From positions 1 through 64,000 of the forward strand of contig JAKAAY010000007.1 of NCBI GenBank assembly GCA_021802055.1: a stretch of DNA of 64,000 nucleotides, given 5' to 3'. The notes under the pieces were generated by a model that ran no database searches, was not told the origin of the DNA, and saw only the letters and a program-made list of their open reading frames with translations. This DNA is from Thermoplasmata archaeon (GTDB taxonomy: Archaea; Thermoplasmatota; Thermoplasmata; Thermoplasmatales; Thermoplasmataceae). The translations under genes and the position numbers were made by a program. Each line of letters starts with the position of its first letter. Within the stretch, counting starts at the first letter, position 1. Below, one piece after another: positions 7,234-23,484 of the stretch.

Positions 7234-8379
7234 GTGCCGTTGAGAGACGTAATCGTTGTGGGCGCTGGCCCGTCCGGCTCATATTCGAGTTTCCTGCTGT
7301 CCAGAAGAGGCTTTGACGTAGCCAACCTGGAGGAGCACATGGAGGTGGGAAGGCCTGTCGAATGCACAGGGCTTGTCTCCAGGCGGGTCATGAATATGGC
7401 GAAGACTAAATCTGCCGTGAATACGGTTCATGGCGCGCAGGTATTCTTCCCGGACGGAGAATCTGTGCACGTTCGGAAAAACGAGGAAACCATAGTGATG
7501 GACCGCGACCAGTTCGACAAGGATGTCTCCGCAATGGCCATATCGGCTGGAACAGACCTGAGGATCAATTCAAGGGTAATCTCCGTGAAGATCCACCCTG
7601 ACCACGTCCAGGTTCGCTACAGGCAGGACGGCAACCTCAGGGAGGAGAAAGCCAGGGCAATAATCGGTGCAGACGGGATCAACAGCAGGGTCAGAAAGGA
7701 CGTATTCGGGTCTGTGCCCAGGAGAATCGTGTCCTGCTACCAGGTGGATTCTGCCGTAAGGCTGGAAGACCAGGACAGCGTGCAGGTGTTTGTTGGATCC
7801 AAGGTGTCAAGGGGTTTTTTCGCATGGGCCACACCGTCCGGGGACATGACCAAGATAGGACTGGGAAATGTGGGGGGAGGGGCCAAGAGCTATTTTGACG
7901 GTTTCAACAGGCGGTTCCCCGCAAACCGGATCCTGGGGATTAACGGAGGAGCCATACCCATTGCATACCTGAGGAAAACGTACTCGGACAGGACGCTGCT
8001 GGTGGGAGATGCGGCGGGTATCGTGAAGCCACTCAGCGGGGGAGGAATATATACGGGGATGGTGTCGGGATCCCATGCTGCAGCTACGCTTGAGCGTGCA
8101 CTGGAATCGGATGACCTTTCCTGGAAGAGCCTTTCGGCCTACCAGAAGGGCTGGAGGTCTGATCTAGGCAGGGAACTGTGGATTGATGGCCTTGTGCAGA
8201 GGTTCTTCGCAATGCTTGGAGACAGGTCATTCAACTCCATGTACCGGTTCATATCCCGCCCTGAGATCATCGGTTTGATCAACAGGACCGGGGACATCGA
8301 CTTCCCGTCCAGAGTCGTATTATCTCTGATGGCAAGAAACCCATGGATGTTCCTTTCCGCGTTCAGGCATGGCAGATGA
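7234..8379 (+). CDS. Geranylgeranyl reductase-family flavoprotein
   Basis: About 381 residues. DVIVVGAGPSGSYSS is the FAD-binding GxGxxG, RPVECTGLVS is the Cys-containing motif near the flavin, and LLVGDAAGIVKPLSGGGIYTG is the second FAD motif (GDAAG) characteristic of digeranylgeranylglycerophospholipid reductases. Such enzymes saturate the isoprenoid chains of archaeal membrane lipids. The open frame reaches TTG 7186, but GTG 7234 is preferred because TATTAA at 7211-7216 lies about 20 bases upstream, placing the transcript start at or near this codon. The stop overlaps the next gene as ATGA, indicating translational coupling. The precise substrate (lipid or quinone side chain) is not certain. 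Confidence 0.87.
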   Translation: MPLRDVIVVGAGPSGSYSSFLLSRRGFDVANLEEHMEVGRPVECTGLVSRRVMNMAKTKSAVNTVHGAQVFFPDGESVHVRKNEETIVMDRDQFDKDVSAMAISAGTDLRINSRVISVKIHPDHVQVRYRQDGNLREEKARAIIGADGINSRVRKDVFGSVPRRIVSCYQVDSAVRLEDQDSVQVFVGSKVSRGFFAWATPSGDMTKIGLGNVGGGAKSYFDGFNRRFPANRILGINGGAIPIAYLRKTYSDRTLLVGDAAGIVKPLSGGGIYTGMVSGSHAAATLERALESDDLSWKSLSAYQKGWRSDLGRELWIDGLVQRFFAMLGDRSFNSMYRFISRPEIIGLINRTGDIDFPSRVVLSLMARNPWMFLSAFRHGR

Positions 8380-18240: not shown

Positions 18241-18745
18241 AGCATCAAATTAACCCAGAGTTATGCATTATATTTTGCTCTGTTGGAAGTTAAGACCTGC
18301 TCTTCTTGAAAGATAGCTTTGACATTATCCAACGCGGCTGATCTGTTCACTGTCTTGATCTCCGCACGTTGCCGTGGCATGTTTGCCGGGTATAATGGGG
18401 TGAATGTCTGACGTTGGCCCATATTGTGGAAAAAGCCCATTTTACGGTGTCATAAGACAAATCCACGCTAAGTCAGCCCCAATAAGGTCTCCCCGCGTAA
18501 TATGATTTAGGCAGTAAAGAGCCCAGTGATTTGTAGTCATGGCCACATGCATCAATGGTTCAGGCCTGAAAAAACCCGCGTGTCCGGATGTTGGTACTTG
18601 AACCGTGGTACCAGTAGAGTTTCCTAATTTTTCACTGTCTGCCTCCGCCTCGAGGTTTAGTCGTGCCAAACACGGTATTGCTATGATTTGTATATAATGA
18701 ACATATAAGTATAATACGTGTTTCTTTCCACGAAACCATTATACA
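18241..18745. other. Gap with possible mobile-element relic and AT-rich promoter
   Basis: The first 50 bases hold the DtxR gene promoter (ATTATATTTT on the minus strand). Positions 18442-18669 contain a 75-codon minus-strand frame, rich in Pro, His and Thr (TGTTVQVPTSGHAGFF), whose composition recalls the variable C-terminal tail of TnpB/IS1341-type proteins; no catalytic motif is present, so at best it is a relic. The last 60 bases are strongly AT-rich (TATATAATGAACATATAAG) and form the promoter of the following operon. Confidence 0.3.
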
Positions 18746-19414
18746 TTGAAGTATTTTTATGATTCAATAAATAACAAAAGAGAAGTGAAAACGGATGAGT
18801 TGGAGATCCGTCCATCGGATATGGGAACCAGCCTTCTGTTTCTTGCAGGGCTATTTTCCATCGCGGTGAGCGGTTTTCTGCTCATGATTGGAGCAGACGG
18901 AGCAGCTAACTTGCAGGAAACTGGGGGGCACAGTAGTTATGCACCTGCCATGATAACTCACCCTCCTGGCGGTGGTTGTTGTTACTATGAATGGGGTGGC
19001 GTACAGTACAACTATGAGTGGGGCTGGTATAACTATGCCACCGGTACATTCCAGATGGTTTCGTATGCTAACGGCACCTATTCCAACGGTAATTTTATCT
19101 TCACTAACTACCACACCGCTTTCCAAAGAAGCACTGGAGGATGTGGAGTGATCAGTTCCCACAATAATGGGCAGTATCAGGTCTTCTGGAATTTGACAGA
19201 CAGCCACGTTCAGACAATGACCAGAACTGGGGACACTGTTTTTTGTGCGAATGACTTCATCCAGTCAAACACAGACAACGTTGAGGTGACTATAAACATC
19301 AACGCGGCCAGCGTCATAAATCCCTCTGTTAGTGGTTTTGCAACGGCTAATGGATCAACCGTCATAGACTGGAACAATATTTTTGGTTTGATCGATGCGG
19401 TAGGTGGAGATTAA
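18746..19414 (+). CDS. Membrane-anchored or secreted Cys/aromatic-rich protein
   Basis: 222 residues; no family recognised. A hydrophobic segment at about residues 28-52 (TSLLFLAGLFSIAVSGFLLM) acts as signal anchor or signal peptide after a charged N-terminus. The ectodomain is unusual: GGGCCYYEWGG, then QYNYEWGWYNYATG, Gly/Asn/Tyr-rich strands, and further cysteines in GGCGVISS and VFCANDF, giving four Cys for disulfides, plus several N-x-S/T sequons. The start is probably TTG 18746, about 14 bases after the transcription start expected from CATATAAG; ATG 18821 would leave a bare signal segment. It is first of five co-directional genes including an ABC transporter, so it may be its cargo or partner. 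Confidence 0.72.
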   Translation: MKYFYDSINNKREVKTDELEIRPSDMGTSLLFLAGLFSIAVSGFLLMIGADGAANLQETGGHSSYAPAMITHPPGGGCCYYEWGGVQYNYEWGWYNYATGTFQMVSYANGTYSNGNFIFTNYHTAFQRSTGGCGVISSHNNGQYQVFWNLTDSHVQTMTRTGDTVFCANDFIQSNTDNVEVTININAASVINPSVSGFATANGSTVIDWNNIFGLIDAVGGD

Positions 19415-19466
19415 ACACCTACCATCGATAATTTTTTGCATTCTTATTTACTTCAGATGAAATTTC

Positions 19467-20366
19467 ATGAGGGTAAAGAAATTCATTGCGTTTGGAATCA
19501 TTATAATGGTCGTAATCACTGCCATACTGTTGGCTGTTCCATTTCTTTCATTGGAATACAGTCAAGAAGGAGATCAGAAGACCATTGTGGCAGGGGAATC
19601 ATTCTTTCTCTATTCTTTTTCGGATGGGGCAGTTTACACATACATAAACGGGACGCCAACCCTCCTCCAGCAGACCGGCGTAATCAAACTTACATATGAT
19701 GGATCAAGCATCATTGAAAGCCTGGCGGTGAGCGGCCCACCTTACGTTGGACACCCGTCAAATTTCACTTACACACAGTTGTTCAAGATGTCAGACACAC
19801 TTGAGTCCGTGTCCGGGTTCGCTCAAACATTTATTAACAGTCTTTCCAGGTCTGACGGCGGCATACTTTCACTGGATGGAAGTGCGGGGGTGGTCTCCGG
19901 AACATTGAGTTATCCATATCATATTCCATATAGCGGTGCAAACCAGACCATTGCGCATTACGCTTCTTCGATTGGGTACACTCAGCCGTTTGTAGTTGCT
20001 TTGAATAACTTCAATGAGACGGGTTCTTCTGAAAACGTTCCCTTCGGAAATTACTATTGCTACGACTATGCGGGATCCACAAATATACTTGTGAGCATGC
20101 ACCTCGTAGCGGGAACCTCTGGAATCAGCCATTTTCTTGAGGAGCTCATCGGTTACACCAATGTCAATAAACCGGTGATACAGGTTGTCAATTTCAACAT
20201 GCAGCTCATAGGTACAAACACAGTACTTTCACCGCTTGATCTTGGCCATTATCTCGAAAAGTTCCTGCTAGTAGAGGTATTGGTATGGATTATTGGCGTA
20301 CTCTACCTTGCAACTACCGTAAAGATGGCAAAGCGGCGTATGAAACCCAAAACAGGATCCAGATGA
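19467..20366 (+). CDS. Ecto-membrane protein with N- and C-terminal transmembrane helices
   Basis: 299 residues; no family recognised. TM1 at residues 7-29 (FIAFGIIIMVVITAILL), a roughly 220-residue extracellular domain rich in Ser, Thr, Tyr and N-x-S/T sequons, then TM2 near 265-287 (FLLVEVLVWIIGVLYLATT) and a short basic cytoplasmic tail. The stop codon overlaps the start of the ABC ATPase gene as ATGA, implying coupled translation. The T-rich TTTTTTGCATTCTTATTTA upstream could act as partial terminator and/or internal TATA element. A likely accessory or substrate-handling subunit of the ABC system; this is inferred from position. Confidence 0.75.
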   Translation: MRVKKFIAFGIIIMVVITAILLAVPFLSLEYSQEGDQKTIVAGESFFLYSFSDGAVYTYINGTPTLLQQTGVIKLTYDGSSIIESLAVSGPPYVGHPSNFTYTQLFKMSDTLESVSGFAQTFINSLSRSDGGILSLDGSAGVVSGTLSYPYHIPYSGANQTIAHYASSIGYTQPFVVALNNFNETGSSENVPFGNYYCYDYAGSTNILVSMHLVAGTSGISHFLEELIGYTNVNKPVIQVVNFNMQLIGTNTVLSPLDLGHYLEKFLLVEVLVWIIGVLYLATTVKMAKRRMKPKTGSR

Positions 20367-21232
20367 GTTGGATGAAACCATGGATCAGGGCCACGGAATT
20401 AACAAAAAAATATGGCAAAACTATAGCTCTTGACTCACTTTCCTTTTCCATTGGCGAAGGGGTCACTCTGCTCTATGGACCAAATGGTGCAGGAAAGAGT
20501 ACGCTCGTATCCATTCTCGAAGGATTGACCATGCGAACCGATGGTCAGGTGCTGGTTGAGGAAATAGATCCTGCCAGAAGACCAGAGACACTTATGAGTA
20601 AGGTTGGATTTCTCCCTGAAAGACCCGTTATATTTGGAGGCAGCATCGTGGCGGATTTTTTCCACTGGTACCTGAAACTCAGCGGTTCCGATTTGTCAAG
20701 ATGCCGGAGGCTCGTAGATGCCTTTTCAGCTGGTTACCTCCTTGAACACAAATTTAACAGCCTTTCCCTGGGCGAGATGCAGCTGGTCAACCTTGTTGCT
20801 GTACTTTCCCTTGAAAGAGATGGATATGTTATGGACGAACCAAACGCCAATCTGGATTTCCACCGGAGAAGAGTCCTGTCCAGAGAAATTTCCCTTCTCC
20901 GGGCTGCCGGGAAGAATCTGCTCATTTCAACCCACATTGTTGACGAACTTGTTGAAGTAGTGGACAGAAGCATCGGCCTGAACAAGGGTAAAATTGCACT
21001 GCTATCAGAGGGTGGGGAGAACTCCAGAGGTGGATTGTTTTCAGTCAATATAATCTCCACTGATTCTGAGTTGCTGATGAATGCGCTTTCTTCGTATTCC
21101 CCAAGAATTTTAGACGGAAGAATCGTGATTGACGGGGCAAAGACTGGCGAAGTCCTCAACAGCCTTTCGGAGTCTGAAAGGCTAGCAGTTTCCTCTGTTT
21201 ACCTCACTCCGAGGATGGATATTTTTGAGTAG
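20363..21232 (+). CDS. ABC transporter ATP-binding protein (ABC-2 exporter type)
   Basis: About 289 residues. Walker A YGPNGAGKST, a Q-loop region VGFLPERPVIFGG, Walker B RDGYVMDEPNANLD and H-loop LISTHIVDELVE are clear. The signature is SLSLGEMQL rather than LSGGQ, a divergent but tolerable C-loop. An additional C-terminal domain of about 80 residues follows, as in ABC-2 type drug/bacteriocin/polysaccharide exporters. ATG 20363 overlaps the upstream stop codon and is preferred to an earlier start in the open frame (20285); ATG 20372 is possible. The stop overlaps the permease start. Confidence 0.9.
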   Translation: MSWMKPWIRATELTKKYGKTIALDSLSFSIGEGVTLLYGPNGAGKSTLVSILEGLTMRTDGQVLVEEIDPARRPETLMSKVGFLPERPVIFGGSIVADFFHWYLKLSGSDLSRCRRLVDAFSAGYLLEHKFNSLSLGEMQLVNLVAVLSLERDGYVMDEPNANLDFHRRRVLSREISLLRAAGKNLLISTHIVDELVEVVDRSIGLNKGKIALLSEGGENSRGGLFSVNIISTDSELLMNALSSYSPRILDGRIVIDGAKTGEVLNSLSESERLAVSSVYLTPRMDIFE

Positions 21233-21938
21233 AACGCTATTAAGCATGGCATTCCAGGACACGGATCCTTTCTTTTCAAGAGAACTTCTGGCCATGTTAC
21301 TTGCCTATCTTGTGTTTATCGGCTATTTCCAGAAACCTGACTTTTATGGGCTTACGTTGTCTCAGGTTTACCTTTCCTCCCTTTCCTCTTTTTATTTCCT
21401 GGTACCCCTTTTATACGCTTCAGAGACTGCCGGTCTTTTTGCCCGCTCCCTGGAGAAGGGATCATTCGGTTTCCTCATGACTATGCCAGTCAAGAGAAAC
21501 CTGCTCCTGTGGATATATGTGCTTGTTGCTGCTCTTGTTTCAGCCTTGATTTTCTGGATACCCGCAGTTTTGCTGGAATGGTACATATTCCCGGGATTTG
21601 ATGTGTTGCTTGCAATTTACATTCTCCTGCTCTTAACAGGCTTCATCCTGCTCTATATCTCTGCGGGGTACCTCATAGCCACAGTGACTTCCAATTCCGT
21701 AATCACTTCACTCTTGGTCCTTGCGTTCTTCTTCCTCGCATCGGTATACTCTGTAAAGTACCTCGCTTCAAATTCATATATTGAGTTCCTTTTTTCAGGA
21801 TTTACTGAGTTCAGCTCAAACCCGGTTCTCAATTATTCCACCTTTGTGGCCGTAATCATTTCGTTCGCGTTATCTGCAGTGATGCTTGCATCAGCTCCAT
21901 TGGTATTGAAAAGGAGAGGAGTAAGGAGCGGGAGATAA
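21225..21938 (+). CDS. ABC-2 type permease
   Basis: 237 residues with six predicted transmembrane helices, the ABC-2 half-transporter size, ending in a basic tail (LKRRGVRSGR). A cytoplasmic segment before helix 3 reads ARSLEKGSFGFLMTMPVKRNLLLW, with the G-S/T...T-x-P-V-x-R pattern (coupling helix) typical of ABC-2 permeases. The TTG start overlaps the ATPase stop; ATG 21246 is a second option. It presumably forms a dimer with the preceding ATPase to move a substrate outward. Confidence 0.85.
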   Translation: MSRTLLSMAFQDTDPFFSRELLAMLLAYLVFIGYFQKPDFYGLTLSQVYLSSLSSFYFLVPLLYASETAGLFARSLEKGSFGFLMTMPVKRNLLLWIYVLVAALVSALIFWIPAVLLEWYIFPGFDVLLAIYILLLLTGFILLYISAGYLIATVTSNSVITSLLVLAFFFLASVYSVKYLASNSYIEFLFSGFTEFSSNPVLNYSTFVAVIISFALSAVMLASAPLVLKRRGVRSGR

Positions 21939-21939
21939 C

Positions 21940-22545
21940 ATGCACAGAAACAATATCATCAGGTTATCGCTTGTTTTCGCCACCTTTTTTCTCTGTTTCC
22001 TTCTTCTCTTCACCGAAACCTGGTATTACGAGCCCCGGGTATATGAAACAGGTGCACCGGTTAACTACATTTTCCTGCAGAACCAGACGGCATCAGCGAG
22101 TGTTGAAAACAGCGTTTACAATGCAACGATCTCTTTCACCTCATATGGCTCCAGCATTACCCTGGAGTCATATTTTCGCCAGAATGTGACCCTGGCGAAT
22201 GAGAGCTACACCGGTAGGATCATCCTCTATTCCCTGCCCACGGGAGGCGGCCGCACACTGATCTCACAATACTTGTACAATTCCACAAACGGTACATGCT
22301 CGCTGTCCTTAGACCTTCATCCTGGGAGTTACGTACTTGTTTCCTACCTGGACTTGTATTTCCATAACTACAATTACACACAGCGCCTCTCAGTAATAAA
22401 TTCAAGACCCGGGACTGCCGGAATCGTTACCGTAATTCTTTCCTTCCCCCAGATCCTCTTTTACCCCGTTATTATCTCCGGTGCGATTACCTTGATATTC
22501 CTGGCGCTTTCCGCGAAGGGAAAAAGGACCTACCTGGAATTGTGA
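21940..22545 (+). CDS. Sequon-rich ecto-membrane protein
   Basis: 201 residues; no family recognised. TM1 at residues 8-26 (LSLVFATFFLCFLLLF), a roughly 130-residue extracellular beta-rich domain with many sequons (NQT, NAT, NVT, NES, NST, NYT), and TM2 near 170-190 with a basic end. Topology and composition copy those of the 299-residue product earlier in the operon, though sequence similarity is not obvious. It begins one base after the permease stop, so it is the last gene of the operon. Possible immunity, anchoring or sensing partner; not established. Confidence 0.75.
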   Translation: MHRNNIIRLSLVFATFFLCFLLLFTETWYYEPRVYETGAPVNYIFLQNQTASASVENSVYNATISFTSYGSSITLESYFRQNVTLANESYTGRIILYSLPTGGGRTLISQYLYNSTNGTCSLSLDLHPGSYVLVSYLDLYFHNYNYTQRLSVINSRPGTAGIVTVILSFPQILFYPVIISGAITLIFLALSAKGKRTYLEL

Positions 22546-22656
22546 AGAATGGCCCACCCCTTTTGAGATCCCGTATAGCTGTTAAGAGCCCATCTCCATT
22601 TGTCCTGTCATGGATGGAATGAAAAACATCATAGCATACTTGCCTATGCCTGTCCA

Positions 22657-23484
22657 TTGATCCGGAATCTCCTGAAATGGGCCGGAGGGAAATCTCAGTT
22701 GCTCAGCGAGATAGTGCCAAGGCTTCCATCCGGTTTCGTGACCTACTATGAGCCCTTCATGGGAGGTGGTGCACTTTTTTTTCACCTTGCCAGGGCAGGG
22801 TTGATACGCAATGCATTTCTCTCTGACGTCAACTGGGACCTTATTACCTTGTACAAGGCTGTCCGGGATGACCCTGAAGGAGTGGACCGGCAGATTTCTA
22901 CCCTGGAATTTAACAATAACCGGCTCGATTATTACAGGGCCAGAAGCCTGTTTAATGAACTGCCTGAAAGTGAATCTACCAGAAGGGCAGCACTCATGTT
23001 ATATCTTAACAGACACTGTTTCAACGGCCTCCACAGGTACAACAGCACAGGCAAATTCAATGTTCCCTTCGGAAATTACAGAAACCCTTCTATGCCGGGG
23101 AGAGAGGAACTTCTGGAGTTCGCCGGGCTGCTGAGAAAGGCCGTTCTGGAGGTCTCTGATTTTCAGGAAATTCTCGGCAGGGCACGTAAAGGAGACTTCG
23201 TTTACATGGACCCGCCGTATGTTCCACTGTCTAAGACTTCAGCCTTTACCTCTTACACAATGAATGGATTCTCCCTGGAAGATCAGAGCAGACTTGCTCG
23301 CGTAGCGAGGGAACTGGACTCCAGGGGAGCCAGGTTCATGATAAGCCACTCTGCAACCCATATAGTCAAGGACCTCTTTTCTGGGTTCAATCTTCATGAA
23401 GTGAAGGCCAGGAGGGCAATCAACTCCATAGGAACCGGGAGAGGTGCCATTGCTGAGCTGATAATCACAAATTATGATGCCTGA
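22657..23484 (+). CDS. Dam-family (alpha-class) DNA adenine methyltransferase
   Basis: About 275 residues, the Dam length. LLKWAGGKSQLL and YYEPFMGGGALFF are the N-terminal AdoMet motifs, VYMDPPYVPLS is the catalytic DPPY motif, and the alpha-class order (AdoMet motif, recognition domain, DPPY) is kept. Dam relatives usually make N6-methyladenine in GATC or GATC-like sites; the specificity here is not proven. No restriction endonuclease gene is adjacent. No ATG fits: the open frame begins at TTG 22600, but TTG 22657 immediately before IRNLLKWAGGK matches family N-termini and lies about 25 bases after an AT-rich CATAGCATAC. Confidence 0.88.
   Translation: MIRNLLKWAGGKSQLLSEIVPRLPSGFVTYYEPFMGGGALFFHLARAGLIRNAFLSDVNWDLITLYKAVRDDPEGVDRQISTLEFNNNRLDYYRARSLFNELPESESTRRAALMLYLNRHCFNGLHRYNSTGKFNVPFGNYRNPSMPGREELLEFAGLLRKAVLEVSDFQEILGRARKGDFVYMDPPYVPLSKTSAFTSYTMNGFSLEDQSRLARVARELDSRGARFMISHSATHIVKDLFSGFNLHEVKARRAINSIGTGRGAIAELIITNYDA

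Follow-up and report, generated by a model that had tools for sequence, protein, structure and literature searches.

The window analysed in this study, a 64,000 nt stretch of DNA from a Thermoplasmata archaeon, carries five co-directional genes at 18746-22545. All five open reading frames named in the original prediction are present on the + strand, and they specify, in order, a signal-anchored secreted protein (P1), a membrane protein (P2), an ABC ATPase, an ABC-2 type permease and a second membrane protein (P5). The genes and the features discussed below are as follows.

18746-19414, + strand: P1, 222 aa, TTG start, signal-anchored secreted protein (ORF call; homologs lie directly upstream of P2 elsewhere)
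18803-18823, + strand: P1 leader motif EIRPSDM, pattern [DEN][IVL]xxxD-hydrophobic, just before the membrane helix
18833-18889, + strand: P1 membrane-spanning segment (hydropathy; helix in the AF2 model)
18959-18982, + strand: P1 Gly-rich linker HPPGGGCC (alignments; (P)GGGG in most anchored members)
19355-19411, + strand: P1 C-terminal hydrophobic/amphipathic segment, STVIDWNNIFGLIDAVGGD (alignment, hydrophobic moment, helix in a low-confidence model)
19467-20366, + strand: P2, 299 aa, membrane protein with a helix at each terminus and a beta-rich ectodomain (ORF call, AF2 model)
20363-21232, + strand: ABC ATPase (PF00005), 289 aa (Pfam E=1.5e-17)
20759-20782, + strand: ATPase signature SLSLGEMQ (alignments; family consensus LS[MLS]GExQ)
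21225-21938, + strand: ABC-2 type permease, 237 aa (Pfam ABC2_membrane_2, weak at E=2.4e-4; relatives have six TM helices)
21940-22545, + strand: P5, 201 aa, second membrane protein, likewise with a helix at each terminus (ORF call; family conserved downstream of the permease)
18282-22672, no strand: accessory segment, missing from the syntenic mntR-dam junction of genome G086 (tblastn synteny, blastn of the junction)

Two of the gene junctions overlap, by 4 nt and 8 nt, another has a gap of 1 nt, and P1 and P2 are separated by 52 nt; the earlier description of most start and stop codons as overlapping therefore holds for two junctions and is otherwise a slight overstatement.

Sequence and structure of the five proteins

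The identification of the third and fourth genes as an ABC-2 ATPase/permease pair was borne out. The ATPase matches PF00005 above the cut-off, and although the permease match lies below the curated cut-off, the gene stands beside the ATPase in all complete loci, so that its identity as an ABC-2 permease is weak by profile but clear by context. Together they have the composition of a generic ABC-2 type transporter, an ABC_tran ATPase with an ABC-2 permease. The SLGEM signature of the ATPase, formerly regarded as atypical, is no oddity of the window copy, because LS[MLS]GE is the consensus of its family.

The leader of P1 fits a pattern found in 16 of the 18 anchor-type P1 proteins with a full leader and in none of 219 control ORFs with an N-terminal TM segment; since the motif was read off the same, related members, these counts describe the family and are not an independent test. 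A Gly-rich linker follows the helix in most anchored members, and the C terminus is hydrophobic and moderately amphipathic (its rank comes from the highest-scoring of 13 windows and is therefore biased upwards). The Ferroplasma-like members have, judged by eye, an apparently ordinary cleavable Sec-type signal peptide. The stretches GGGCCYYEWGG and QYNYEWGWYNY and the four Cys reported earlier for P1 are all present, as are the terminal helices of P2 and P5. The label 'Cys/Tyr/Trp-rich' applies in a milder sense, the composition being only slightly unusual (W+Y 8.1%, against 5.6 +/- 2.2% for other ORFs), and the four cysteines are not a defining trait of P1, since cysteines are not conserved across its members and are entirely missing from four relatives. 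A 402-aa protein that adjoins P2 in another locus (L111 6217-7425) combines the P1 leader with a different, longer ectodomain and a C-terminal helix, which suggests that the leader may be modular.

P1, P2 and P5 fit no known family, as had been proposed for three of the five products. None of them matched a family in Pfam, NCBIfam or PADLOC; Pfam and NCBIfam scans of all members of the three families gave isolated, non-repeating hits only, and the anti-phage defence models of PADLOC returned only generic ATPase hits, from the ABC ATPase. No pilin, archaellin or S-layer profile was among the Pfam and NCBIfam hits of P1 members. Profiles of the three proteins found no relatives among PDB sequences (P5 had one match at E=0.25), and the sole PHROG match was an unconvincing one for P1, to a protein of unknown function (E=0.05), with none for P2 or P5. 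The AlphaFold model of P2 (pLDDT 75, pTM 0.75) shows an ectodomain rich in beta structure, flanked by a membrane helix at either end, and fold searches in the PDB and in viral structure libraries returned nothing at E <= 0.001; the top hits, ApoB and lipovitellin, had poor TM scores and were set aside. The model of P1 was unusable (pLDDT 40), and no relatedness between P2 and P5 was detectable (hhalign probability 28%).

ABC-2 type pairs with ecto-proteins are also a feature of NosDFY and CcmA systems, labels that are used in genome papers on the Thermoplasmatales (PMC10354927), and the ABC genes of this operon have seemingly been labelled NosY, CcmA or 'multidrug' until now. NosY and CcmA labels are reported in multiple copies for the related archaeon E-plasma (PMC10354927), and the ABC ATPase gives a CcmA match, though one that does not reach the ccmA cut-off (60.8 vs 131.6 bits). 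It is nevertheless highly improbable that the transporter is a NosFY/CcmA-like maturation system that assembles P1 outside the cell as a metal- or haem-binding enzyme. P2 and P5 lack Pfam or NCBIfam matches, and P1 has no conserved metal or haem motif and no conserved Cys, with four members Cys-free and CxxCH absent from 23 of 24 P1 proteins; the idea was rejected for this want of conserved ligands in P1.

Distribution and co-inheritance of the operon

A search with the single P1 sequence found one relative only, and it was the ABC proteins that led to many loci. The order P1-P2-ATPase-permease-P5, on a single strand, occurs in 22 complete loci in 18 Thermoplasmatales genomes, a recurrence that is more than chance. 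The original prediction had been staked on a conserved linkage of P1 with the ABC genes in relatives; P1 stays linked to P2 and the ABC genes throughout the Thermoplasmatales, so the prediction withstood this test, and the undescribed system it envisaged is real and conserved. P1 is the gene immediately 5' of P2 wherever both are readable, the exceptions being a contig end or an IS element. In a sample of 400 genomes of the class, a P2 profile matched 28, every one of them in the order Thermoplasmatales and none beyond it, and a P1 profile matched 26 of the 117 genomes of the order. Among the genomes searched, the operon is found only in these wall-less, acid-loving archaea.

Pattern scans of genome contigs and viral contigs with P1 alone found nothing, and since the P2 alignment was too divergent for such a scan, a fragment of the ATPase was used instead; hits past the first 18 were generic ABC proteins and were left out. 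The 18 loci with named records all belong to Thermoplasmata MAGs, some of them labelled Cuniculiplasma or Thermoplasmatales. A further locus is in a closed genome whose 1,564,906 bases equal the genome length of Thermoplasma acidophilum. The operon is present in one Thermoplasma genome; another member of that genus, with a closed chromosome, yielded no match.

The five genes travel together, as the score matrices of their proteins are strongly correlated (Mantel r 0.89-0.95, p <= 0.001), with P1-P2 at r = 0.95. Because P1 co-varies so tightly with P2-P5, a hypervariable swapping of cassettes of the polymorphic-toxin kind was ruled out. An ordinary housekeeping operon for an ABC-2 drug or lipid exporter, in which the first gene is incidental, is improbable as well. 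ABC-2 pairs are indeed common in these genomes, but P1 lies directly before P2 in nearly all readable places and co-varies with it, and the three family-specific partners are always the same.

The operon is also an accessory module, since genome G086, of the same genus, has nothing at the corresponding position: mntR and dam, the neighbours of the window copy, adjoin each other there without an intervening operon (blastn, and tblastn comparison of the DtxR/MntR, Nramp, Dam and flanking genes). G086 has a related operon at another site (L052). The genome of the window has four copies that belong to four different subfamilies, and for three of these copies the nearest relatives are found in other species and not among the other copies. 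Flanking genes do not recur from locus to locus, except for generic ABC domains and a few shared neighbours, and a comparison of the junctions revealed no terminal repeats that would mark a mobile element at the ends of the window module.

Loss of P1 and of other genes

P1 is split by IS elements in two loci, and the two insertions are independent. The element in L103 has a 514-aa transposase and 11-nt perfect inverted ends, and that in L105 is a different one, with a 400-aa transposase, 34-nt inverted ends and flanking AAATATTT; the P1 of L105 also bears a stop codon and a frameshift. IS insertions were found in P1 only. Frameshift or truncation has affected P1 elsewhere, the gene being broken at L052, truncated at L061 and frameshifted in its leader at L117, although some frameshifts lie in low-coverage MAG contigs and may be errors. 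At L069 and L121 no trace of P1 was found between P2 and the next gene. In all of these loci P2, the ATPase, the permease and P5 are open. P2-P5 are under purifying selection in the two loci without P1, L069 (dN/dS 0.15-0.41 against Thermoplasma relatives) and L121 (0.10-0.24), the loss of P1 being undated in these comparisons; the values are 0.12-0.25 in a comparison pair that retains P1. The pattern of a bacteriocin-immunity module, in which the toxin gene is lost and its partners are kept under selection, is seen at L103, L105, L052, L069, L121 and L117, and this repeated loss lends support to the resemblance to bacteriocin loci that was first suggested by the gene layout.

The rate at which P1 itself evolves varies. 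In the pair L063/L064 its dN/dS is 0.76 vs 0.21-0.39 for the partners, and in a Thermoplasma pair it is 0.17, constrained like the partners. Decay is not one-sided, as P1-P2 persist at L113, and probably at L107 and L108, where the ABC genes are not intact, and L102 and L109 retain P2 alone; this tally favours P2, because most of the ABC-less or P2-only loci were found by P2 search. The P1-P2 pair of L113 (6188-7669) lies in a closed, Ferroplasma-like genome, and its P1 has a C..CH motif. The leader frameshift of L117 falls at a poly-T run (around 7673-7780) and could mark a phase-variable site or be an error of sequencing. A remnant of P5 (6219-6635) precedes the broken P1 of L052 and is perhaps left from a second, decayed operon.

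These observations bear on two further explanations. The ABC-2 transporter, P2 and P5 could be dedicated to the extraction, folding, anchoring or display of P1, which would then be a non-toxic surface protein of cells that have no wall, such as an adhesin, a receptor or a cell-cell recognition protein, with the leader as recognition tag. We consider this somewhat unlikely. It is consistent with the inheritance of the five genes as a unit, strongest for P1-P2, with a leader that is specific to P1 and common to the 402-aa protein that carries another ectodomain next to P2, with the signal-anchor topology and Gly-rich linker, and with the purifying selection on P1 in the Thermoplasma pair. However, P2-P5 stay intact and selected where P1 is gone, the IS insertions are confined to P1, and the distribution is patchy, multi-copy and accessory, all of which argue against a display function. 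Alternatively, P1 or a fragment of it may be a secreted signal or pheromone, a cue sensed by P2 and P5 and then passed on or removed by the ABC transporter. An ABC pair with two ecto-proteins at its side does recall sensor-transporter modules, and a listener strategy would likewise account for the loss of P1 where reception is retained, but P1 is a large folded protein, and no regulator gene or recurrent neighbour linked to the operon was found, making such a role rather improbable.

A possible antagonist with self-protection

The interpretation that we favour, tentatively, is that the operon is an accessory, bacteriocin-like antagonism module with a secreted P1 and membrane-bound immunity. 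Broken P1 genes with kept partners, divergent copies, patchy occurrence and the fast evolution of P1 in one pair would fit a secreted antagonist with self-protection, and in the genomes compared the operon evolves in the manner of a self-protected antimicrobial module. Against an antagonist stand the absence of any toxin-family match for P1, the loci in which P1-P2 persist but the ABC genes do not, the tight co-variation of P1 with P2-P5, the possible errors among the frameshifts and the Thermoplasma pair, where P1 is as constrained as its partners.

P1 would leave the cell by the Sec route, with its dedicated leader, and once released or displayed, its putative beta-rich ectodomain and C-terminal amphipathic segment may target the membranes of rival archaea that have no wall. 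P2 and P5, predicted to be anchored at both ends with their ectodomains outside, would be immunity partners, P2 possibly as immunity or receptor partner, and with the ABC-2 transporter they could shield the producer cell, capturing P1 and driving it out of the membrane. The original prediction saw the ABC pair mainly as an exporter of P1, a role that now appears doubtful. P1 has a signal anchor or Sec-type signal of its own, so that the pair more likely protects or processes than exports, and the ordinary-looking signal peptide of some members means that the pair need not be required for P1 export; a Sec-capable P1, and ABC genes under selection in loci without P1, fit immunity or tolerance better than export.

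Several known systems invite comparison. Lactococcin 972 loci, such as the pneumococcal scbABC, likewise begin with a secreted bacteriocin gene, and the genes that follow, for a membrane protein and for an ABC protein, are predicted to act in immunity or transport; loci in which only the toxin gene is missing are common, 27.5% of pneumococcal genomes retaining scbBC without the bacteriocin gene (PMC11796350). No homology was claimed when this likeness was first pointed out, a caution that proved sound, as full Pfam and NCBIfam scans gave no hit of Lactococcin_972 profiles to the window P1 or its relatives. The bacteriocin-associated multi-TM integral membrane protein is absent from the operon, which has instead two bitopic ecto-proteins, P2 and P5, with two terminal helices each and no family match. 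P1 also exceeds the mature lactococcin 972 peptide several-fold in size, and that peptide binds lipid II, which archaea do not have. Self-protection transporters of the LanFEG/BcrAB type with a NisI-like accessory protein are similar in that an ABC-2 pair and an extracellular, membrane-anchored protein share one operon, in which they would jointly keep a membrane-active product away. However, the ATPase falls far below the cut-off of TIGR03740 (70.7 vs 309.75 bits) and, unlike lantibiotic systems, this operon has no modification enzymes and its P2 and P5 are not lipoproteins. Halocins and sulfolobicins (PMC4609331, PMC10105419) are archaeal proteins that are likewise secreted and have a presumed action against related archaea, as is proposed here for P1, but they have no recognised sequence relationship to it. 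The literature searched, which did not extend to an earlier survey of archaeal toxins, contained no bacteriocin system from the Thermoplasmatales, and antiSMASH and BACTIBASE gave no bacteriocin locus in E-plasma (PMC10354927).

It may be speculated further, and with more reserve, that P1 represents an undescribed family of archaeal protein antimicrobials with a leader of its own, directed against acidophiles whose membranes are not covered by a wall, that an ABC-2 transporter and two ecto-proteins anchored at both ends make up the complex for self-immunity, and that the family is widespread and multi-copy in the Thermoplasmatales. If so, dense acid-mine communities, cultured species included, would hold many variants of one weapon. 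Even if P1 is no toxin, three new protein families and a leader motif have been defined in a recurrent operon.

More divergent versions of the operon are present in another family of the order (L118 and L120), where very Trp/Tyr-rich secreted proteins, without Pfam or NCBIfam matches, are encoded directly before P2-like and ABC genes (L118 1-540, L120 4605-5159). A possible variant operon at L053 13811-15999 has genes for two Cys-containing secreted or membrane proteins, one of them weakly P5-like, followed by a gene for an ABC ATPase.
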